From the NCBI RefSeq assembly GCF_030169785.1, contig NZ_CP125854.1:1674001-1738000 (forward strand): a stretch of DNA of 64,000 nt, read 5' to 3'. Position 1 is the stretch's first letter; every line of letters starts with the position of its first letter. The translations under genes were made by a program, and so were the position numbers. The DNA comes from Bdellovibrio sp. 22V (GTDB lineage: Bacteria > Bdellovibrionota > Bdellovibrionia > Bdellovibrionales > Bdellovibrionaceae). Below are positions 3 to 64,000 of the stretch, one piece after another. The notes beneath the pieces are model-generated. The model was not told the origin of the DNA. It saw only the letters and a program-made list of their open reading frames with translations, and did no database searches.

Positions 3-803
3 TCTAAGGCCGTCGGCTTGCACATCCTGAATCGTGCTTCCTACGTTCAGCCGGGCCAAACTCACGTTAAGAGATGCATCATCGAAATGGGTGGTAAGAA
101 CGCCGTCATCATCGACAACGATGCCGACCTTGATGAAGCAGTCGACGGAGTTTTGTACTCCGCTTTCGGTTTCAGCGGTCAGAAATGTTCTGCTGCCAGC
201 CGCGTGATCGTTCTTGACGAAGTCTATGACAGATTTACAGAGCGCTTGGTTGAAGCCGCGAAATCCATTGACGTATTGCCTGCGGAAAATCCAAAAGCCT
301 ACATGGGACCTGTCGTTGATGAAGAAGCTTACCAACGTATCCTGAACACGATTGCGGAGAATGAGAAGACTCACAAACTTCTGTTCAAAGGCACGGCTCC
401 TACGACAGGCTTCTTTGCTCCGCCAACAATTTTCGGAGATGTTCCAGGTGACTCCAAACTCGCGCAAAACGAAATCTTCGGGCCGGTTGTCGCTGTGATC
501 CGTGCGAAAAACTTGGATCAAGCTATTGAGATCGCAAACAGCACCGAGTACGCATTGACTGGCGGAATGTTCTCGCGCAGTCCTGCGAATATCGCTCGTG
601 TGAAAGAAGAATTCGAAGTGGGTAACTTGTACATCAACCGCGGCATCACAGGTGCCATGGTCGACCGTCATCCATTTGGTGGTTTCAAGATGTCAGGTAT
701 TGGTTCTAAAACCGGCGGTCCGGATTACTTGAAACAATACATGGAGCCAGCAGCTGTGACAGAGAATACTCTTCGTCGCGGCTTTGCACCGGCGGAAGAA
801 TAA
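3..803 (+). CDS. L-glutamate gamma-semialdehyde (P5C) dehydrogenase, C-terminal part
   Basis: The protein oxidises glutamate semialdehyde to glutamate with NAD in proline breakdown. The frame is open to the left edge, so the N-terminal half is missing; a TTG at 18 is internal and not the start. Aldehyde dehydrogenase landmarks are visible: the general-base Glu in IIEMGGKNAV, the catalytic Cys in FSGQKCSAASR, EIFGPVV, and near the end the subfamily-typical NRGITGA, HPFGGFKMSG and GGPDYL. The ending (VTENTLRRGFAP) is normal for a stand-alone RocA/PruA-type enzyme or the C-terminal part of a PutA fusion, which cannot be told apart here. A strong hairpin terminator follows. Confidence 0.92.
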   Translation, partial: SKAVGLHILNRASYVQPGQTHVKRCIIEMGGKNAVIIDNDADLDEAVDGVLYSAFGFSGQKCSAASRVIVLDEVYDRFTERLVEAAKSIDVLPAENPKAYMGPVVDEEAYQRILNTIAENEKTHKLLFKGTAPTTGFFAPPTIFGDVPGDSKLAQNEIFGPVVAVIRAKNLDQAIEIANSTEYALTGGMFSRSPANIARVKEEFEVGNLYINRGITGAMVDRHPFGGFKMSGIGSKTGGPDYLKQYMEPAAVTENTLRRGFAPAEE

Positions 804-50304: not shown

Positions 50305-50478
50305 CGATTTGAGGCACGAATTTAGAAAGTACCACACTCAATTCGGAACCAGGGGTAATTCCATAATGGGTCGGAGGTTCTATTCTGGAACCATTTTCTT
50401 AGACCAAAGCACAGGATAAGAAAGCTAGCCTCCGAGGCCATAGTCCTTTGTCAAAAAGCTCAGTATTATTAGGTGTCT

Positions 50479-53376
50479 ATGTCACGTATTCAGGTCACTT
50501 GGGTTGTTAAAACGCGGAATGGTCAGGTTAAAGGACCGTATTCCACAGAAGCCATTCTTCGCATGATTGGTGAGGGGGTCTTTTCTGGTCAAGAGATGAT
50601 CTCTAAACTTCCCGATGGCCAGTGGTCTCTTATTTCCAAAGAACCTGCCTTTTACGACAAGCTTCTTGAAGCTCTTGAAGGTGTCGTCGATGTTGATCCA
50701 AAAAAAGCGCAGAAGATGGAAGCAGAGACTGTCATCATACAGCCTCCCCGTGCACAAAAACAAAATCCACCGCCGCCGCAAGCTCCGAACCCCGAGAGCT
50801 TCGCAAATTTGCGTGTAGAAAAACCGAAACAAAAAGTCGACGTTTACGATACACCAGCGTATGTGCCGCCGGCGAAGGTTCCTTTTCAAAGCGTCACCTC
50901 GAACGATAAAAAATCGGACTCTGTCATTGAGCTTTCTAATTTGAAAAACATGGAGAAAGGCGAGATCGCCAAATCTCTAAAAATGCCGGCAATTATTCTC
51001 GCCGTTGCGATTGTGATCGGCGTGTTTTTGCTGTGGGACTCCGGTCCGGCCGATGGTTCTAAAATTCATTTGCTGGCCCCGGGAAAATCAGGCGCGACGC
51101 TGAACGATCAACAGGTAAAAGAAAAACTCAACGAAGCATTGTTCGCAATGGAGCAGGATACGTTTGAGTCTTATATCCAAGCGCAAAACAAACTCGTTTC
51201 CATTGTCGAAGGCGCGCCGATGAATATCGAAGTGCGTGCGCTTTTGTGTGTGGTATACAAAGAGCTTTGGCCTTTTGCTGTTCAAGATGCACAAGACGTT
51301 AAGACGATTGCGACGGCAACTCAGCAAACGCGGGCATTGAATGTTATTAGCCCTTTCGGTCAAGTGTGCGAGGCCGTGAAGCTCATGACCACGGGCCGTT
51401 ACAAAGAAGCGAAAGGTGTTGTTGAGACAACTCTGGAAAGCAATGAACCTTTTTCTTTGCTTCCCGTTTTGTACGACTTCAAGGCGGAGCTTCTGGTTGG
51501 GGAAAGAGATTTCAACAACGCTTCTCCTTACTATGAAAAAGCCGTGCAACTTTGGGAAAAGTGGCTTCATCCGCAAGTTTCTTTGGCTAAAGTTTATTTG
51601 GAACAAGGTGAGTTCACTTCCGCTGCGGGAGTTTTAAAAAACGTCATTTCTAAAAATGCGAAACACAAAGAAGCTAAGATTCTGCTGGGGATTATCGAGT
51701 ATCGCGGTTTTAAGAAAACGGACTCGGCCTATAGTTACCTCAGCACGGCCCTGGAGTCCAAGGGTCGCCTTAGCCAACTTGTGGAAGCTGATGGATACGC
51801 CATCCTTGCAGAGATTTATGTTCTGCGCGGAGAAAAAAGTCGTGCATTAGACGCTGCTCAAAAAGGTTTCTCTTTGAACCCGAATAACAACGAGATCCGT
51901 CAGCTTGTTGTTCGTTTGGGCGGTTCGGATAAGATCAAAGGTGAAAAAGGTCAGAACAACGAGCTTCTTTACCTCGGGGATCAGTATGTGCGCCAAGGCG
52001 ACTTTTTGGCAGCACAGGCAGAGTTCAAAGCTGCTTTTGAAGTCGATCCTAAAAACGGAACGGCGGCCATGAAGGCGGCGAAATGTTTGTGGCAGTTGAA
52101 TCAAAGTTTCGAAGCTATCGAGTGGCTGAATAAAGCAATTAAAGCAGAGCCGAAGTTAGTTTCCGCTTACGTTTTGCAAGCTGATTACATGTCACAGCGT
52201 TTTGATTTTGTGGGAGCTCTTCAGGTTCTTACGAATGCCACAAGAATCGCACCGAACAACTATGAAGTTTTGCGCGGTCTTGCAATGCTCGAATTCCGAA
52301 AGAATAACATGGTGGGCACCATCAACTATGCCATGCGTGCGGCGAAAGTTTATGACGGGGATATCGAAACGTTTATTCTTCTTTCAAAAGCCAATGGTTT
52401 GCTGGCGCGCTCGATTATGCCAATTAATAAAAAAGAAATTGAACGTAAAGAAAATGCCGCGAAAGATGCGATTCGATACGCGACCAAAGCTGTTGAGATT
52501 GATGCAACCAATCCGGAAGCACAAATTACTTATGCCAAGATGCTTGCGCAAACAAATGGCGTGGACTCAGGGATTAATTATCTCAATGAGCTGATCAAAC
52601 GATTCTCTTACACTTTGGATTATCGCATTGCCTTGGCGGAAGTTTACAAATCTGAAGACCGCTATAGTCAGGCGAAAGAAATTTACGAAAAAGTTGTCGA
52701 GGCCGATCCAAAAAGCAAAAAAGGCTGGCTGGGATTGGGCGAGAGTGAAAAAGCTCTGGGCCTGAATGACAAAGCTTTGAAGGCTTTCTTAAGTGCGGCG
52801 GTTCTTGATCCCACTGATGGAGAAGCTTTGTTTCAAGCCGGTAAGTTATACTTAGAGACCAGTCGGTTTGAAGAGGCGATCCAGCAGTTTAAGCGTGTGC
52901 AAAGACTCAATGGCAACTACCCGCGTACCTACTACTACATTGGTAAAGCGGCGTTTTCTTCCGGGGATTTTGCAACGGCGCTCGAGGCTTCGAAATCAGA
53001 AAAGAAATTGAATCCTAATGTGGCGGATTCGTACATTCTTGCGGCGGAAGTTTATACAGCTCGAAAACAATATGCGGAATGTGCGGCGGAGTATTCGCAT
53101 GCGATGAAGCTGCGCCCTCAAGGTGCGGATATTTATGTAAAATCGGCCACATGTTATCGCCAATCAGGCTCGCTGGATGTCGCTGAAGACATGTTGGCGT
53201 TGGCGGCGGCGCGCGAAAGTGGTTTCGCTGAAATTTACCGGGAGCAAGGCGCTATCTATGAACTGAAGGGTGACACCCGTTCTGCGGCGCAGGCTTATAA
53301 TAAATATTTAGGCCTCTCGCCAAACGCTCTGGATCGTGCTGAAATAGAAAACAAAATTTTACGGCTCGGCAACTAA
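50479..53376 (+). CDS. GYF-like/transmembrane/TPR repeat protein
   Basis: The 965-aa protein has a GYF_2-like N-terminal domain (VTWVVKTRNGQVKGPYSTEA, GVFSGQEMISKLPDGQW) at residues 3-60, a Pro-rich low-complexity linker, one membrane segment near residues 168-187 (AIILAVAIVIGVFLLWDS), and then about 15-20 TPR units from residue 210 to the end (for example FLAAQAEFKAAFEVDPKN, YSQAKEIYEKVVEADPKS). So the GYF part is cytoplasmic and the TPR part periplasmic. GYF domains in Myxococcus gliding proteins suggest an envelope assembly or motility role, but there is no direct evidence. A small membrane protein and serS follow on the same strand. Confidence 0.85.
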   Translation: MSRIQVTWVVKTRNGQVKGPYSTEAILRMIGEGVFSGQEMISKLPDGQWSLISKEPAFYDKLLEALEGVVDVDPKKAQKMEAETVIIQPPRAQKQNPPPPQAPNPESFANLRVEKPKQKVDVYDTPAYVPPAKVPFQSVTSNDKKSDSVIELSNLKNMEKGEIAKSLKMPAIILAVAIVIGVFLLWDSGPADGSKIHLLAPGKSGATLNDQQVKEKLNEALFAMEQDTFESYIQAQNKLVSIVEGAPMNIEVRALLCVVYKELWPFAVQDAQDVKTIATATQQTRALNVISPFGQVCEAVKLMTTGRYKEAKGVVETTLESNEPFSLLPVLYDFKAELLVGERDFNNASPYYEKAVQLWEKWLHPQVSLAKVYLEQGEFTSAAGVLKNVISKNAKHKEAKILLGIIEYRGFKKTDSAYSYLSTALESKGRLSQLVEADGYAILAEIYVLRGEKSRALDAAQKGFSLNPNNNEIRQLVVRLGGSDKIKGEKGQNNELLYLGDQYVRQGDFLAAQAEFKAAFEVDPKNGTAAMKAAKCLWQLNQSFEAIEWLNKAIKAEPKLVSAYVLQADYMSQRFDFVGALQVLTNATRIAPNNYEVLRGLAMLEFRKNNMVGTINYAMRAAKVYDGDIETFILLSKANGLLARSIMPINKKEIERKENAAKDAIRYATKAVEIDATNPEAQITYAKMLAQTNGVDSGINYLNELIKRFSYTLDYRIALAEVYKSEDRYSQAKEIYEKVVEADPKSKKGWLGLGESEKALGLNDKALKAFLSAAVLDPTDGEALFQAGKLYLETSRFEEAIQQFKRVQRLNGNYPRTYYYIGKAAFSSGDFATALEASKSEKKLNPNVADSYILAAEVYTARKQYAECAAEYSHAMKLRPQGADIYVKSATCYRQSGSLDVAEDMLALAAARESGFAEIYREQGAIYELKGDTRSAAQAYNKYLGLSPNALDRAEIENKILRLGN

Positions 53377-55270: not shown

Positions 55271-56596
55271 CTATCTTCGAGCAGGTTGAACTACGGATTG
55301 TTTTTTTGCGGCCGCAAACTGTTCTTCTGTGGAGCCCTTCAACGCACCCGTGGAAGCTTTGCCGTCCATGACAGTTTGTAACACTTGATCGAAGTAACCG
55401 GTGCCAACCTCCGCTTGGTGTTTGACGGCCGTGTAGCCGTGTTGCGCGGCTGCGAATTCTTTATCCTGTAGGTCCACATACGCGGTCATGCCTTCTTCGG
55501 CGTAGCGATGAGCCAAATCAAAAGTGTAGTAATTAACAAGATGCCATCCCGCCAACGTGATGAATTGAAATTTGTATCCCAGTGAACCTAAGCGCGCTTG
55601 GAAATCTGCGATGTCATCGTCGTTCAAATGCATTTTCCAATTGAACGAAGGGGAGCAATTGTAAGCGAGAATTTTTCCCGGATACTTTTTGTGAATCTCA
55701 CGGGCAAAGAGTTCGGCCTCCTTCATATCTGGTTTGGAAGTTTCAAACCATAGAACATCCGCCCAAGGAGCGTAAGCTAAAGCGCGAGCGATCGCATGCT
55801 CGATGCCGCCTTTGATGACATAATATCCTTCGGGAGTTCTTTCGCCGGTAAGAAATTTTTTATCGGCCGGATCGATATCTGAAGTCATGAGAGTCGCGCT
55901 TAAGGCATCTGTGCGGGCGACAATCACAGTCGGCACGTCTAAAACATCCGAAGCAAGACGAGCAGCTTGCAGCGTACGTGTGAATGAACTTGTCGGAACT
56001 AAAACTTTTCCAGCGAGATGCCCGCATTTTTTTTCAGCTGCGAGCTGATCCTCAAAGTGAACGCCAGACGCGCCGGCTTCAATCATCGCTTTCATAAGTT
56101 CGAAGGCATGCAATGGTCCGCCGAACCCCGCTTCCGCATCGGCAATAATAGGAGCATACCAATCAAGACCTTTAACATCCTCGTTGGATTGATTCGCGAT
56201 TTGATCCGCGCGCATGAAAGCATTATTAATTCTGCGCACAAGAGTCGGCACGGAGTTGCAGGGGTAAAGACTTTGATCAGGATACGTGCTTCCGGAAAGA
56301 TTGGCGTCGGCGGCAACCTGCCAACCGCTAAGATAAATTGATTTCAAACCTGCCTTCACCATTTGTACGGCTTGGGCTCCAGTCATCGCGCCGAAGGTAT
56401 TTAGATAGCCTTCGCCGTTCAAAGATTTCCAAAGTTTTCTAGAACCCAAATCCGCGATCGTGTGTTTAATCGGAATGGTTGTGCGCAGTCGAACGACGTC
56501 CTCCGCAGAATAATTTCTTTGGATTCCTTTCCAACGTTCATCTGTTTTCCACGTCTCATTAAGCTGGCGAGACTGAAGGTCCTTGTTTAAAATCAT
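55271..56596 (-). CDS. aceA: isocitrate lyase
   Basis: AceA splits isocitrate into glyoxylate and succinate. The active-site signature [13 protein letters not shown] is intact, along with [24 protein letters not shown]-type pattern ([20 protein letters not shown], then [14 protein letters not shown]) and ADAEAGFGG. The length of 441 aa is normal. The start at 56596 has AAAGGAG 6 bp upstream and overlaps the 3' end of aceB by 38 bp, so translation is coupled. Together with AceB it runs the glyoxylate bypass for growth on fatty acids or acetate. Confidence 0.96.
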
Positions 56597-58157
56597 GAGC
56601 GGCTCCTTTAAGATATGTTTGATTTAAAATTTCGTAAGCGCTGATGGTCATAAACTCGTGGAATTGTTTAGACAGCACGAGGGAGTTAAGAAGCTCAACG
56701 GCTTCATCCAAGCAAGGGAGTCTGTGCGGAATAAGTTTAATGACTTCTTCCTGCAGAAGCTCGCGGTAGTATTCAGGTGTGAAAACGCGGCCGTTGGAAA
56801 GGTGTACTCGGTGATGAAGCCATTGCCACAATTGACTGCGGGAAATTTCAGCCGTAGCGACGTCTTCCATCATATTATGAAGAGCTGCAGCACCCGTTCC
56901 AGTGAGCCAGCGATCTATATACATCAAACTGATGTTGATATTTGTGCGCACTCCCTGCTCCGTGATTTGATTTTTCGCGGAGGGAAGATTTAACAGGTCT
57001 TCGCTGCGAATCGCGATAGGAGGCATGGCGTGCATTTGATGGGGATTATCCTTTAGAACACGAGTGAGCTCTTCTTCAGCAACAGGAATAAGATCCGGGT
57101 GAGCGACCCACGTGCCGTCGAAGCCAATGCGCGCCTCTCTTTTTTTATCTTCTGCAACTTTTTTAAATGCGTTCTGCGTGAGTTCTGGATCGCGGCGATT
57201 CGGAATGAACGCGGCCATACCGCCAATGGCATGTGCTTGACGACGGTGGCATGTTTGCACAAGCAAGCGGCAGTAAGCATCCATAAAAGGAGTGCTCATC
57301 GTAATCGAAGAGCGATCGGGCGTAAGAAACTCTTCGTGTGCATGAAACTTTTTTATAAGACTGAAAATATAGTCCCATCTTCCAGCATTGAGTCCGGCGG
57401 CGTGATCTTTTAAGGCGTAAAGAATCTCTTCCATTTCAAAAGCCGCGGTGATTGTTTCAATCAGGACCGTCGCGCGGATAGTTCCGCGTGGAATTTGCAA
57501 GCGGTCTTGAGCAAAATTGAAAACGTCATTCCACCAGGCCGCCTCTTCATGATTCTCAAGTTTAGGAAGATAAAAATAAGGACCTGTACCCCGGCGCAGA
57601 AGCTCCGTAGCGTTGTGGAAGAAATAAAGTCCAAAATCAAAAAGGGATGCCGAAATGGGCTCGCCGCGAATCAGGAAATTCTTCTCGTCGAGATGTAATC
57701 CGCGAGGACGAACAACCAACGTCGCAGTCTTTTCATTGAGTTTGTATATTTTATCTTCGGCACTGTGTACGAGTGTTCTTCTGACTGCATGTTGCAATGC
57801 TTTTTGGGCCGTTAAAATATTTGTCCAACTGGGCGAAAGGGAATCCTCAAGATCCGCCATGAAAACGCGGGCTCCAGAGTTGAGGGCGTTGATCATCATT
57901 TTTGGTTCGGCGGGACCGGTGATCTCGACACGGCGATCACGGAGATCATGTGGAGCTTCTGCAACTTGCCACTCGGATCTGCGTATTTCTTCCGTATGTG
58001 GAAGGAAATCCGGTCGATGACCCTCGGCAAATCTTTCTGCTTGAGTTCTTCTTTGAATAAGTAAGTTTTGTCGCAGATTATCGAATTTTTCGTGTAAGGA
58101 AATGAGAAACGCTGCTGCTTCAGGAGAAACGATTTCGGACTTAAGTTGTTCACTCAT
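56559..58157 (-). CDS. aceB: malate synthase A
   Basis: AceB condenses glyoxylate with acetyl-CoA to malate. The 532 aa match malate synthase A in length. Landmarks: [44 protein letters not shown], and [19 protein letters not shown] with catalytic-site residues, plus [20 protein letters not shown] lies 5 bp upstream of the ATG. It is first in the aceBA operon. No aceK regulator gene is seen here. Confidence 0.96.
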
Positions 58158-58998: not shown

Positions 58999-60963
58999 TT
59001 AAGCAGACTTTCGCGATGTGAAGGTCTGCATCTTTGTTAAAATCGGATTTGTTTTTAAATAAACCGGATCCGTTTCTTTATAATAATTCAAAATGGTATT
59101 GAGTGCGTACTCGCCCGAGCGCTGACTGCTTGGGTGAGGACTGTTGAGAAGTCTGTGGAGAGCGTCCCACACGTCGGCGTTAAGCTGCTGCTTGGCCACC
59201 TCGACAATCGTATCTGCTGCCACGCGGTTGTTTTGAGAAAACATATTCTCCCAAATTTTGCGTGCGGGATAACCGTATTTTCCAAGAACAACGATTGCGT
59301 TCGCCTGAACACGAGGATCTTTGTGCTCCAAAAGTATTTCGATGGAACTTTGTAAAGATGCCGTCCACAGACTCTGTGGAATAATTCGTCCGATAAGAGT
59401 GACGACGGCAGAAAGAGCTTTGGTGCTGAGAAGTCCTTCCTCTTCCCCGCGCAGGAAAGAGTTCAAAGTCGTTTCTGCTTCCGCAACCATTTCCGGTGTC
59501 GTGTTTTCAAAACTATGATATTTCAAAGCGTGGAGAATGCGAACGATGTCATCATCTCGGCGAGTGACTGCCATCAAGCGTACTTTTTTCAGAACAAAGG
59601 CCGTGTGTGCGTCGGATCTAAAATAAGCCAGACGATCCCACATTTCCGCCTCGAAAACCCATTCGATAGAATTAAAGTCTCGAGTGCGACACAGAAGAGA
59701 TTCTTCTTTAAAACCTTTTAATTGGTTTGTCTTACGGTCAAAGATAAAGGCTAATCCGTCGGCACTGATTGCCGCTTCTTGGAAGAATGTCAGCACCTGG
59801 TGAGTTTTATCGTCAACCAAAGAAAGCAGGCGAACAGATTCGATCAATGGCAACCCGCTCATGGCATGGCCTTCATCCAACTGAATGAAACGCATTGTGC
59901 CTTTGGCGAAGGAACCCTTAAGTTTGAAATAGTGATTTGCTTCAGGTGGAAGACTTTGTTCTATCACAGTGGCTTCGTAAAACAAGTCGCGAATACAGGC
60001 GACGGCAAGCGATTCAGAAGAAAGATCTGGAGCCATTTCGTCTTTGAAGAGGAAAACAATCTCGTCACCAACAAATTGATAAATCAAACCGTCGTAGCGT
60101 TGAATCACCTCGCGGGCTTTGGCGAAGTATTGATTAAGAATCGTTGTGAGATACTTGTCGTCTTTTTCCAAAAACATCTGCGTATAACCATTGAGGTCCA
60201 CACGGCAAAGAGTCGCAGGAAAACTGTAAGGAGCTTGTCTCCCGCTTTGCAATTCGTAACGAATGGCAGGTCCGACGGTTTCTCCATAAGTTTCGCTAAG
60301 ATTCTCCAAACGAACGCGCTCGCCTTCAAGACCCATGGATGCTTGTAAGAGAGTCTCCGCTTCCGCTGAATTGGTTTTGATTTGCTCCATGCCGTCACGA
60401 GTGCGGCTAGCAAGAACTTTGCTAAGGTTCATAATGTCTCTGAGAAGAAGATAGCAAATCACTCCCAGCATTAGAGAAACCATTGCAATATCTTTTATCA
60501 AGAGAGGAAGAATAACGAGAAACGATTTCCAAATAATGCTGTTGCGATCAGAAGCCGTCCCAGCTGTGAGTCTGTAATCAATGACTTTGATCGTCTTGTA
60601 AGTCAGTCCATTGGACTCGCGAAATTCATTGAATCTTTGATAGTTGTGATTGAGGTCGTTGACGTCGCCGGAGTTGTTTTCAAAAAAGACAACCTCATCA
60701 CCTTTCTGAAGAATGTAAAAATCAATCAGTCCGAGCTTTCGTGCCTGTGATAGACGATCTTTTAGACTTTCTGAATGTTCTTGAACCAAAGCTCCGATCG
60801 AACTTTGTAAGATATAGTTGAGATTCTCTTTTCTGGAAGCGATTTCAGCATCGGCAAGCTTGTTGGATTGCCCATAAAACTGGTAGGCCGAGATAGAAAC
60901 ATAACCGATCCAAAAGAAAACCATGATAAGGAGTAAAAGAGATTTCTTATTTTTGCCGAACAA
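58999..60963 (-). CDS. membrane protein with divergent class III nucleotidyl cyclase domain and HEAT-like repeats
   Basis: The TTG at 60963 is preferred since AAGGAG lies 6 bp upstream. It has a membrane segment near residues 6-25, a periplasmic region of about 110 aa, a second segment near 145-170, then a cyclase-like domain at about 250-400 (CRVDLNGYTQ with the first metal Asp, and GLIYQFVGDEIVFLF with the second), and a C-terminal HEAT-like region (PRVQANAIVVLGKYG, SSQRSGEYALNTILNYY). The Lys that reads the base in adenylate cyclases (position three before GD) is Gln here, so activity or nucleotide is uncertain. Its start overlaps the end of the HExxH protein gene upstream by 17 bp. Confidence 0.8.
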   Translation of the reverse strand: MFGKNKKSLLLLIMVFFWIGYVSISAYQFYGQSNKLADAEIASRKENLNYILQSSIGALVQEHSESLKDRLSQARKLGLIDFYILQKGDEVVFFENNSGDVNDLNHNYQRFNEFRESNGLTYKTIKVIDYRLTAGTASDRNSIIWKSFLVILPLLIKDIAMVSLMLGVICYLLLRDIMNLSKVLASRTRDGMEQIKTNSAEAETLLQASMGLEGERVRLENLSETYGETVGPAIRYELQSGRQAPYSFPATLCRVDLNGYTQMFLEKDDKYLTTILNQYFAKAREVIQRYDGLIYQFVGDEIVFLFKDEMAPDLSSESLAVACIRDLFYEATVIEQSLPPEANHYFKLKGSFAKGTMRFIQLDEGHAMSGLPLIESVRLLSLVDDKTHQVLTFFQEAAISADGLAFIFDRKTNQLKGFKEESLLCRTRDFNSIEWVFEAEMWDRLAYFRSDAHTAFVLKKVRLMAVTRRDDDIVRILHALKYHSFENTTPEMVAEAETTLNSFLRGEEEGLLSTKALSAVVTLIGRIIPQSLWTASLQSSIEILLEHKDPRVQANAIVVLGKYGYPARKIWENMFSQNNRVAADTIVEVAKQQLNADVWDALHRLLNSPHPSSQRSGEYALNTILNYYKETDPVYLKTNPILTKMQTFTSRKSA

Positions 60964-63058
60964 AGCGATCTCCTTGGTCGACAAAAATCACATCGCCTTT
61001 TTCAGCTCCATATTCATTTCCGCCGAGGTCATAGACGGTGACTTTGTTTTGTTTCAACGTATTGATAAAAGTCTGATCCTTCAGTTTCGCTCGGGCATTC
61101 TCATAAGATCCGCGAGAGAAGAAAGAAACGACTTCGTCGCGGCTAGGTGTCGTTGTATTTGCGACATTTCTTTGTGCCGTGCCTGCTGCCGATTTTTGAG
61201 GTGGTGTAGCGCCGCTCGCGGATGGTTGGACCGTCGGAATGGAACCGCCAGAGCCACCGCCTGCATTTCCGGGGCTACCTGGTGCAGAGCTGAAGCCTGG
61301 GTTAAATCCCCCGCCGCTACCACCGACTTCACGACTGCCCGACGGAGTTGTTGGAGTGCTAGGTCTCGCACCTGCAGGAGGCGTAACGGCCGCGGGAGCT
61401 CGTTGCGGTTGCTGATCTGACGGAGCAGAGGGACGTGAGTTTGCAACGCCGCCCCCGGAGAATCCGCCGCCGACCGTAATTTCTTCTTTGATGTATTCAC
61501 CTTGCTGTAATTCTTTAGAGCGCATGTTGCCAAGATTTTTTGCAGCAGCCACTTTCGATCCTACGACAACTTCAGTATCCATTTTATAATCGCTTGCTGG
61601 AGCGCGCGGTGCAGATGATGAACGTGAAGATCGAGAGGACAAATCCGAACTTGAAGAACTGGATGACGTCGCGACATCATAGGATGAGGAAGACGAACTT
61701 GACGAGCTTTCAGAAGATGCAGAAGAGCTGCTTGGTGCGCTCGAAGGACCTGCGTAATAAGATCCACTTGGAACACTTGCTCCAGACCTGTTGTCAGCTA
61801 AAGAATTTGTAGGACCAGGCTCTGCCGCGTTAGCTGGAGTCGATCCCAAAACCTTTTCCGCCATACGAACGACACCGCTTGTTTGCGCTGTACTTGTCTC
61901 TTTGGCTTCCTGTTTGCCACGAGCATCTGCCAAACGATTCATATCCGCAGGCGAAGCATCTTTCGCTGGCTGAGGCGGAGCTTCCGCATCTTCCTTGGCG
62001 ATGACTTGTTTATTCTCTTTCGCTGCGTCGTCGGCGCCTTTTTTAATAATGTTTTTATCTGGAAGCATTGACCAGGAACGCGTTTGATTGGCGTTCGCAA
62101 GAGATGTTCTCATTTCAAGAGCGTCTTTATTAATAATTCGAACTTTCTCTGCGTTGCAAAGCGCACCAATTTGATTGGTAAGAGCTTCATCCTTTACAGA
62201 AGAACGATGGAGCGACTCGTGGACCAGTTGCTGCCGTAAACGGCTTATAACTGCTCCGGTCTCAGCCGGATCCATATTGATTTGGATCAGACCATTTTCG
62301 GCTGTTTGCATTGCCGGCGTGGAAGCGTCGTTACCTTTTTTCTTACAAGTAAAAATAGGCTTAGTTGCCTCTTGAATCTGTATAATGGAGTTTTTGAAGC
62401 CGATAACGGCTTTTTCGTGCTCAATCGGACCATTTTTTTCGCCGAATTTTTCAACGAACATCTTCTTGACGGTATCTCCCTCGACGCAACTTAAGAATGA
62501 GTTCTTTTTATCGTCTTTGGGTGCTCTGAAAATATCCCGCACGGCCGACTCGAGGGTGCTTGCAAAAGACCCTTTCTCGTCGATTTCATAACAAGAGTTT
62601 GCAATAGATTTCTCTACAGTTTTTTTAAAATTTGAATCAGAAATTTCGCTGAAAGTTTTAAGAATTTTTTCCCACTCACTTTTATGGTTTGTGGTACAAA
62701 GTCTTCCATTTTCAGAAAAATTATATATTTCCTGTCGTCTATTCTGGGAATAGATAAGATAGAGGTTCCCGTTTTCTTCCAAAACCACGCGTTCCTGAAC
62801 TCGTGCGCCCTGAATCTTTCGAATATGGTAATAAATCCCTTCGGCAAGATCATATCTTTCTATGATGAGACCGCCCTTTTGAATTTTCCAATATTCTAGT
62901 TTCTTATCTAAGTTTGTATCGATGCGAGTGTCTTCGTAGTCTGCGTCTAATAGAGAAAAGGACGTCATTTTTTGCTGAGTGGAAAAAAATGGTGATATTG
63001 AGCTCGCTGAGCTCATTGAAGAATAAAATAGCAAAAAGAATACGACGAAACTCTTCAT
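60947..63058 (-). CDS. exported Ser-rich protein with HExxH motif
   Basis: The 703-aa protein has a signal peptide (VVFFLLFYSSMSSASS) and an N-terminal domain of about 310 residues with several Cys and the motif LVHESLHRSS; HESLH (residues 280-284) fits the zinc-metallopeptidase HExxH pattern. The rest is low complexity: Ala/Glu-rich, then a long Ser run (ASSESSSSSSSSS-like) and Pro/Gly-rich stretches, with a short C-terminal domain (FFSRGSYENARAKLKDQTF). It may be a surface-exposed enzyme on a flexible stalk. The cyclase gene overlaps its end, so they form an operon. The third zinc ligand is not identified, so peptidase activity is a guess. Confidence 0.75.
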   Translation of the reverse strand: MKSFVVFFLLFYSSMSSASSISPFFSTQQKMTSFSLLDADYEDTRIDTNLDKKLEYWKIQKGGLIIERYDLAEGIYYHIRKIQGARVQERVVLEENGNLYLIYSQNRRQEIYNFSENGRLCTTNHKSEWEKILKTFSEISDSNFKKTVEKSIANSCYEIDEKGSFASTLESAVRDIFRAPKDDKKNSFLSCVEGDTVKKMFVEKFGEKNGPIEHEKAVIGFKNSIIQIQEATKPIFTCKKKGNDASTPAMQTAENGLIQINMDPAETGAVISRLRQQLVHESLHRSSVKDEALTNQIGALCNAEKVRIINKDALEMRTSLANANQTRSWSMLPDKNIIKKGADDAAKENKQVIAKEDAEAPPQPAKDASPADMNRLADARGKQEAKETSTAQTSGVVRMAEKVLGSTPANAAEPGPTNSLADNRSGASVPSGSYYAGPSSAPSSSSASSESSSSSSSSSYDVATSSSSSSSDLSSRSSRSSSAPRAPASDYKMDTEVVVGSKVAAAKNLGNMRSKELQQGEYIKEEITVGGGFSGGGVANSRPSAPSDQQPQRAPAAVTPPAGARPSTPTTPSGSREVGGSGGGFNPGFSSAPGSPGNAGGGSGGSIPTVQPSASGATPPQKSAAGTAQRNVANTTTPSRDEVVSFFSRGSYENARAKLKDQTFINTLKQNKVTVYDLGGNEYGAEKGDVIFVDQGDRFVRQK

Positions 63059-63183
63059 CCAAAGATTTATCGGATTTTATGTAAATAAATTAGACGAGAT
63101 TTAGGTCCGGAATCAAACTAGGCTTCGGTCCAACATAAACCGAGGTTCTTTTCAAAGTACGTTATCCAAATCACAATAAAATA

Positions 63184-64000
63184 ATGAAGATACTTATCAT
63201 CATTGTTTTATTGTTTGGTGGTCATTTTGCCTATTCACTTCCCTCCATCCGTGCCTTTTCAATTATTGATAAATCTTACTCGAAGGTGACTGGTGAGCTT
63301 GAAATTAAAAATATGCCGAGGGTCGCATCTCAGGATGGACTTGGGATATGTTATGCGTTCGTGGCGGCAACTCAATTACAAGCGGAATATTGCAGGGTTT
63401 TGAGAAAAGATTGTTCGAAGTTACCGGATGAAGAACTGTTCTCGCCTCTTGATATAGCCCGGATTAAGGATTCGGGAAATATTAAGCCAGAGGAGGCGCG
63501 CTTGCGTTCTTCGTATGCGGGCTTAAATACTGAATCCGGAGGTGATCCACACAATGCAGCTATTATCGCGGGCCTTGTGGTACAAGAAACGGCTAATGAA
63601 GCGTGTATCTCTTTGGACAAAGTTCTGAGCAAAATGAATTCCAGAGGAGAAACCATCGAAGCGCAGGCCGCGATGTGGGAAAGAATGAAGAAGCACTATC
63701 TTAACTATCAAAAAAACAAGAAATGTGCCGACTGTCTTTCCGATATCTATGCAACGGCCAAAAGCGATATTGATGAAAATCTTAGCCTCACGACTTCAAA
63801 CGAAGAAATATTAAAGGCATTCGGGGAAGATAGTTACGAAAAGTTTTTAGACCAACTGCTAGGGGCCAATAAATGCAGAAGGGCTACCCAATTAGCATTC
63901 ATGGAAAATGCTGATAGTCTTGAATATAAATTTTATCCTGAAGACGAAAAGGATCCAAAAAAACTAAAAGACGCTTTTTCTCCAGATAAGTTTAAAGGGA
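63184..64000 (+). CDS. exported papain-like cysteine peptidase candidate, N-terminal part
   Basis: The frame starts at ATG 63184 and stays open for 272 codons to the right edge, so the C-terminal part is missing. A signal peptide (LIIIVLLFGGHFAYS) is followed by MPRVASQDGLGICYAFVAA. The Gln (50) and Cys (56) are six residues apart, like the oxyanion Gln and catalytic Cys of papain (Gln19, Cys25), and CYAF mirrors the usual CWAF. The expected His and Asn must lie beyond the edge. It is divergent, by 125 bp, from the HExxH protein gene. There is no clear ribosome binding site. Confidence 0.7.
   Translation, partial: MKILIIIVLLFGGHFAYSLPSIRAFSIIDKSYSKVTGELEIKNMPRVASQDGLGICYAFVAATQLQAEYCRVLRKDCSKLPDEELFSPLDIARIKDSGNIKPEEARLRSSYAGLNTESGGDPHNAAIIAGLVVQETANEACISLDKVLSKMNSRGETIEAQAAMWERMKKHYLNYQKNKKCADCLSDIYATAKSDIDENLSLTTSNEEILKAFGEDSYEKFLDQLLGANKCRRATQLAFMENADSLEYKFYPEDEKDPKKLKDAFSPDKFKG

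Follow-up and report, generated by a model that had tools for sequence, protein, structure and literature searches.

A hypervariable, exchangeable gene cluster combining exported peptidase candidates with a cyclase-like membrane protein in Bdellovibrio

A 64,000-nucleotide stretch of the Bdellovibrio sp. 22V genome (hereafter the window; positions 1674001-1738000 of the chromosome in a complete 3.6-Mb genome, from the same genus group as strain HD100) ends in a divergent gene cluster whose extracytoplasmic part is a hypervariable block exchanged between strains. The cluster comprises a membrane cyclase/HEAT protein (F3), an exported HExxH protein (F2) and a papain-like cysteine peptidase candidate (F0). 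When the sequence is continued past position 64000, a DUF333 protein (F1) and a second papain (F0b) follow directly downstream of F0 on the same strand (Table 1). The three open reading frames (ORFs) within the window lie where a first-pass annotation of the sequence had placed them, and the papain candidate indeed begins 125 bp from the F2 start codon on the opposite strand (63184, +). F1, F0b and the hypervariability of the locus with its exchangeable alleles, all missed by that annotation, are the more unusual features of the locus. The F3 ORF of the window overlaps the 3' end of the F2 ORF, and because an identical 17-nt F2/F3 overlap recurs in ten relatives, the TTG at 60963 is the likelier F3 start. 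A consensus scan of the intergenic region between F2 and F0 found no sigma-70-like promoter or terminator.

Table 1. Coordinates of the cluster genes and of their main parts (window positions; the prefix L003 denotes the continued sequence).
Feature	Position	Strand	Basis
F3 ORF, membrane class III cyclase-like protein	58999..60984	-	ORF; HD100 Bd0081 by position
F3 domains	TM1 and periplasmic sensor, residues 1-~150; TM2 ~150-185; cyclase-like ~251-450; HEAT repeats ~451-661	-	topology read from sequence; profiles
F2, exported HExxH protein, 703 aa	60947..63058	-	ORF; HD100 Bd0082 by position
F2 domains	signal peptide; N-terminal beta domain ~33-113; HExxH domain ~140-305; long low-complexity Ser/Pro/Gly linker; C-terminal domain ~639-703	-	sequence, AlphaFold
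HESLH putative zinc-site motif of F2, residues 280-284	62207..62221	-	alignment
F2 Glu291, candidate third zinc ligand, 7 residues past second His	62186..62188	-	alignment; putative ligand role
F2 C-terminal domain, best-conserved part of F2, one copy in genome	60950..61144	-	genome search; domain comparison
Divergent intergenic region F2/F0, 125 bp	63059..63183	.	start-codon positions
F0, exported papain-like (C1-type) cysteine peptidase candidate, clade A, 368 aa	63184..64000, ~290 bp more beyond window	+	ORF, alignment
F0 oxyanion-hole Gln50	63331..63333	+	34/36 aligned
F0 catalytic Cys56	63349..63351	+	36/36 aligned
F0 His305, Asn330, past 64000	L003:4097-4099, L003:4172-4174	+	continued sequence
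F1, exported DUF333 protein, 127 aa	L003:4300-4683, beyond window	+	continued sequence, Pfam
F0b, second papain, 358 aa, clade of HD100 Bd0084	L003:4698-5774, beyond window	+	continued sequence, clade placement

For comparison, homologues of F2 and F0 were gathered from relatives and those of F3 from the genus, and the corresponding loci were retrieved and their genes clustered (G and L numbers denote the genomes and loci), with HD100 (G006) and Tiberius (G002; PMC3539863) as reference genomes. Between the window genome and HD100, proteins encoded in the flanks are 73-94% identical, as against 42% for F3, 32% for F2, 37% for F0 and 32% for F1. At the DNA level, HD100 and Tiberius are mostly 95-100% identical in the flanks, fall to 41-75% from around residue 200-225 of F3 through F0, and return to 99% at the next gene (F8). 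Resolved by domain, F3 of these two strains is 70% identical in its sensor, 99% in its cyclase domain and 92% in its HEAT repeats; F2 is 42% identical in the HExxH domain and 89% in the C-terminal domain, and F0 stands at 51%. The same block separates G018 from G001, with the cytoplasmic part of F3 at 97-99% identity, the sensor at 41%, the F2 head at 18-30% and F0 at 34%, while G011 and G022 differ in a shorter block beginning within F2. Among 310 reciprocal-best orthologue pairs drawn from the initial 400 kb of the HD100 and Tiberius genomes (about one-tenth of the chromosome; median identity 97.2%), F2, F0 and F1 hold the lowest ranks 1, 2 and 4.

The HD100 and G023 loci are ~94% identical. 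Here all 20 changes among the 373 codons of F0 are silent, and F1 has a single silent change in 134 codons, with silent differences in 20-25% of codons in F9, F5 and F3. This pattern indicates that the alleles are stable and constrained; some of the block may also have been transferred in the recent past. Fast mutation in situ is excluded as the sole cause of the variability, given the abrupt borders in three strain pairs and the conservation of the same genes between HD100 and G023; abrupt borders together with stable alleles point to recombinational exchange rather than to fast drift. Pairwise distances of F0 and F2 are correlated (0.82-0.93), also when the flanking genes or F3 are controlled for (partial correlation 0.74-0.87; permutation p <= 0.001), and partial correlations reach 0.73 for F0-F1 and 0.12-0.28 for F0-F3, although the exact values should not be over-read because low identities compress the distances and the samples comprise 10-15 loci. 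The F3 sensor, F2, F1 and F0 vary together while the cytoplasmic output stays constant, as would be expected if the four must fit one another.

The arrangement of the genes is widely kept. F0 stands head-to-head with F2 in all 25 genus copies of F2, which bears out the conserved divergent order on which the first-pass annotation had made its proposal depend. The spacing between the two genes in these 25 loci ranges from a 28-bp overlap to ~530 bp, with F1 placed between them in the larger gaps. In most loci the gene after F2, on its strand, is F3. Plain shared synteny of close relatives is excluded as an explanation of this order, since the flanking genes vary in L087, L097, L100 and L103 while the unit persists. 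The usual position of F1 is next to F0, but four loci (L077, L078, L082 and L178) have it within the F2-F3 operon instead; both DUF333 genes of the window genome stand beside papain-like genes. Outside the genus, other families of the order have F2-F3 pairs that lack F0, and F1-F0 pairs occur without F2 or F3 in other families of the phylum. Considering that each pair occurs alone there, two older pairs appear to have been joined in Bdellovibrio. Searches for F0, F1, F2 and F3 all came back empty in G025 and G052, presumably the epibiotic predators P. exovorus JSS and Ca. B. qaytius; a gene set of intraperiplasmic predation would be expected in intraperiplasmic Bdellovibrionaceae and not in epibiotic ones. 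The module is present in G044 and G054, of the same genus group. Second F2-F0-F1 copies without F3 were seen in G011, G010 and G022 (L095, L097 and L099), where a gene for a lipoprotein-like protein of ~420-470 aa (F26) lies downstream of F2. An F3 homologue of 32% identity lies on a contig titled as a Streptomyces griseus metagenome-assembled genome (L113), which is most likely a mislabelled Bdellovibrionota bin.

The continued sequence shows F0 to be complete, so that a broken or truncated papain is excluded, and the catalytic His and Asn anticipated beyond 64000 are present in the motifs NSHAVVISGY and NSWGKSWQ. In an alignment of 36 homologues, these two residues are as invariant as Cys56, and Trp336 is likewise found in 36 of 36. 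Against the Pfam cut-off of 20.7 bits for Peptidase_C1 (PF00112), F0 scores below (17.8 bits) and F0b above (23.4 bits), and 20 of the 36 family members reach this profile at E<0.1. The two papains fall in two clades, and it is F0b, not F0, that belongs to the clade of HD100 Bd0084. Only ~38 residues separate the signal peptide of F0 from its catalytic Cys, which leaves it without a papain-type propeptide; an N-terminal inhibitory propeptide is common, although not universal, in the papain family. F1 matches DUF333 (PF03891) with 50.7 bits (cut-off 25), and its predicted model is confident, with a predicted local distance difference test (pLDDT) score of 90. The gene pairing, the missing propeptide and the co-variation together suggest that F1 inhibits or matures F0. 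No description of a DUF333-papain pairing was found in the literature searched. In the lineage without DUF333, the papains L094:9932-11083 and L098:9570-10742 have the oxyanion Gln replaced by Ile in two species, hinting that full papain activity is linked with DUF333.

The HExxH motif of F2 occupies the same alignment column in all 25 genus homologues, although their overall identity to the window protein is only about 16-42%, and a chance match is excluded on this ground. Across 26 aligned rows, Cys156, Cys191, Cys238 and Cys301 are invariant, Glu281 is found in 26 and both His in 25, and position 291 is Glu or Asp in all 26 (one row being aligned through a one-residue gap). In the AlphaFold model, residues 33-113 form a beta domain and residues 140-305 a helical domain carrying HExxH; an extended disordered linker then leads to a C-terminal domain predicted with confidence. 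Foldseek and VIA-align matched the beta domain to OspA-like sheets only (Z up to 7.0), and a search of PDB sequences with the F2 profile returned only low-complexity matches. The C-terminal domain was considered as a shared sorting domain and rejected, as it occurs in a single copy in the genome.

F3 had been read at first pass as a cyclase-like signalling partner, and its class III homology stands. Its profile matches CyaB (3r5g, E 7e-7) and related cyclases, all 22 sequences keep the metal aspartates D263 and D307 as well as the catalytic Arg, and HEAT_2 was detected in 17 of the 22 homologues. Other residues needed for ordinary adenylate cyclase activity, however, are replaced: the substrate Lys position is occupied by Gln (18/22), the transition-state Asn position by Ile (19/22), and the Thr/Asp specificity position by Ala (12), Gly (5), Ser (3) or Asp (2). 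PF00211 picks out two other cyclases in the window genome and not F3. Because the substrate, specificity and transition-state residues are replaced, ordinary adenylate cyclase activity is unlikely, and a canonical adenylate cyclase is excluded on residues; F3 may instead have a regulatory role or act on an unusual substrate.

Placed between the anchors Bd0075, Bd0081 and Bd0084, the HD100 counterparts are Bd0081 for F3, Bd0082 for F2, Bd0083 for F1 and Bd0084 for F0, tags that are positional and not drawn from annotation. PMC6717892 gives Bd0081 as an annotated adenylate cyclase, and PMC11003981 lists Bd0084 among the cysteine proteases detected in emptied prey, which makes the prey the likely site of F0 action. 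The first-pass proposal of a predation-linked peptidase and signalling module is supported in part: the grouping of two candidate exported peptidases with a membrane signalling protein is conserved as a unit, and the link to predation gains this outside support. The upstream gene of the block in HD100 encodes a tetratricopeptide repeat (TPR) protein matching Bd0075 (PMC12034629), which is reported to be essential for predation (PMC6561027). Its orthologue in the window (50473-53376, +) shares one conserved chromosomal block with the module. Isocitrate lyase- and malate synthase-like genes are found between SerRS and DedA (window 55271-58157, -) and are not part of this block in most relatives. 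Beyond the window, L003:11578-12930 (+; chromosome 1745577-1746929) encodes an exported protein of 450 aa with a THG...SCHSG pattern recalling caspase-like (clan CD) cysteine peptidases. This protein has no Pfam match and is 46% identical to its orthologues, compared with 71-96% for most neighbours; it is possibly a second variable secreted protease nearby.

Taken together, the data are best accounted for, at a probability of roughly 0.5, by a prey-directed proteolysis cassette that has a dedicated partner or inhibitor, includes an envelope sensor of its own and is maintained in the form of exchangeable alleles. F0 would be exported and used against prey during invasion, and F1, likewise exported, would be the partner dedicated to it, in all likelihood as an inhibitor or an in-trans pro-domain. 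Such a partner could shield the predator, which shares a compartment with its own enzyme, from a papain that lacks its own papain-type propeptide. F2, with an aspzincin-like zinc peptidase head, a long disordered stalk and a conserved end domain, may work with F0 and F1 and report to F3, whose periplasmic domain would sense the state of F2 or of its target and pass the signal inward through the non-canonical cyclase/HEAT module. The sensor half of F3, F2, F1 and F0 would be replaced jointly by homologous recombination in the conserved flanks, leaving the cytoplasmic output of F3 constant, as expected if the extracytoplasmic parts are matched to each other and meet an external target that varies. 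The variability might then reflect variation among prey, prey inhibitors or rival predators.

Several observations weigh against a prey-directed cassette of this kind. The papain occurs without DUF333 in five genus loci, and the module is also present in the family members G034, G044 and G054, whose lifestyle is unknown. HExxH is lost in the family relative G034 (KEMLR) and in several distant F2-like neighbours of F3, so that peptidase activity would not be universal in the wider F2 family. No convincing peptidase family was found for F2 by Pfam, and the best structural matches of residues ~144-307 are to aspzincins, namely AsaP1 (2x3a/b/c; Z 7.5 over ~130 residues) and deuterolysin (1eb6; Z 6.8), all below the VIA-align caution line of Z 8. 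Since the M35 motif GTxDxxYG was also not found in the window F2 past HExxH, the head is called aspzincin-like rather than a member of the aspzincins, and a zinc peptidase of this type is a weak assignment from the model. The inhibitor role proposed for F1 comes from gene pairing in a family, DUF333, that is without a known structure match, and the F1 model itself gave no convincing match among solved structures (Foldseek, VIA-align; best Z 2.8). In addition, the authors of PMC11003981 point out that some peptides of the emptied-prey preparation stem from broken predator cells.

Among the alternatives, the one that survives best is internal proteolysis, in which F2 and F0 would act on the predator's own envelope in surface-protein maturation or stage switching, with F3 providing feedback and the variability following the predator's own surface proteins. 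The F2/F3 overlap and the conserved C-terminal domain of F2 suggest that the predator envelope is their permanent location, and the F2-F3 pairs that lack F0 elsewhere in the order would suit such a role. However, F0 and F1 have signal peptides and no obvious anchor, Bd0084 appears in the emptied-prey list of PMC11003981, and the two presumed epibiotic genomes contain no match, so that this explanation, although worth keeping in mind, seems unlikely. It is more doubtful still that the locus holds ordinary digestive enzymes in a recombination hotspot, their linkage historical and their variability functionally meaningless. Secreted proteases often evolve fast and neighbours can hitchhike during recombination, but the gene order is kept despite different flanks, the F3 breakpoint lies just past TM2 in two independent pairs with the cytoplasmic part left 92-99% identical, and between HD100 and G023 these genes match, or nearly match, their neighbours in conservation. 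Slightly less probable again is antagonism or kin recognition between predators, with F0 and F2 targeting rival Bdellovibrio in one prey cell and F1 as allele-specific immunity that diversifies like a polymorphic toxin system, for while the exchange of the block among near-identical strains, the discreteness of the alleles, F0-F1 co-variation and the extra papain of another clade (F0b) beside F0 in the window genome would agree with it, F2 has its conserved part in the tail and its variable part in the head, opposite to what is usual in polymorphic toxins, F1 is missing from five loci, and no orphan immunity arrays were seen in the regions read.

A bolder form of the prey-directed reading is that of a type-determining predator cassette, in which matched alleles of two secreted proteases, their inhibitor and the outer half of the sensor are traded between strains like serotype loci, so that a predator's allele would determine the prey envelopes or rival predators that it can deal with; this is a speculative extension that we consider improbable at present. 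The determinants of prey range and efficiency in Bdellovibrio are an open question, for which comparative genomics has mostly sought the presence or absence of genes. Nearly all of the genus has the genes of the cassette, and what distinguishes near-identical strains is the allele, as in HD100 and Tiberius, both of which are cultured. The locus may contribute to the predator's mode of attack. If the cassette matters for killing, it would offer a handle on predator specificity, as well as a possible protease-inhibitor pair in a predator that resides inside the compartment it attacks.

With respect to known systems, the papain, zinc peptidase and cyclase homologues are of known kinds, and individual HD100 genes have been published on in other contexts; neither the four-gene unit nor its allelic exchange was found described in the literature searched, a search that left subscription papers and supplements outside. 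The closest published context is Bd0081-Bd0084 of HD100 and the 'kiss of death' secretome (PMC11003981, PMC6717892), which concern the same locus; the relevant passages give no account of the cluster or of the HExxH partner, DUF333 and allelic exchange. The exchangeable heads and the paired F1 might correspond to the exchangeable toxic part and the cognate immunity gene of polymorphic toxin and immunity systems, which also have a conserved delivery part; in F2 the order of conserved and variable parts is reversed. F2 shares with the aspzincins (M35) the HExxH motif followed by an acidic residue and the best structural matches over ~130 residues, and departs from them in lacking GTxDxxYG, in the acidic residue lying just 7 positions past the second His, and in its added stalk and conserved tail. 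Like class III cyclases with a membrane sensor such as CyaB, F3 has cyclase homology and keeps both metal Asp and the catalytic Arg; it differs in that the substrate Lys is mainly Gln, Thr/Asp mainly Ala, Gly or Ser and the catalytic Asn Ile, and in its C-terminal HEAT repeats. The Cys-His gap of F0 is ~250 residues, whereas that of papain is ~134. F0 further differs from the papain C1A family (MEROPS) in having no N-terminal propeptide, in its extra invariant cysteines and in the DUF333 gene adjacent in most lineages, and agrees with it in the Gln/Cys spacing of 6, the His and Asn/Trp motifs and the invariant catalytic residues. F1, finally, is like other DUF333 proteins by its Pfam match and is set apart from them by its pairing with papains.
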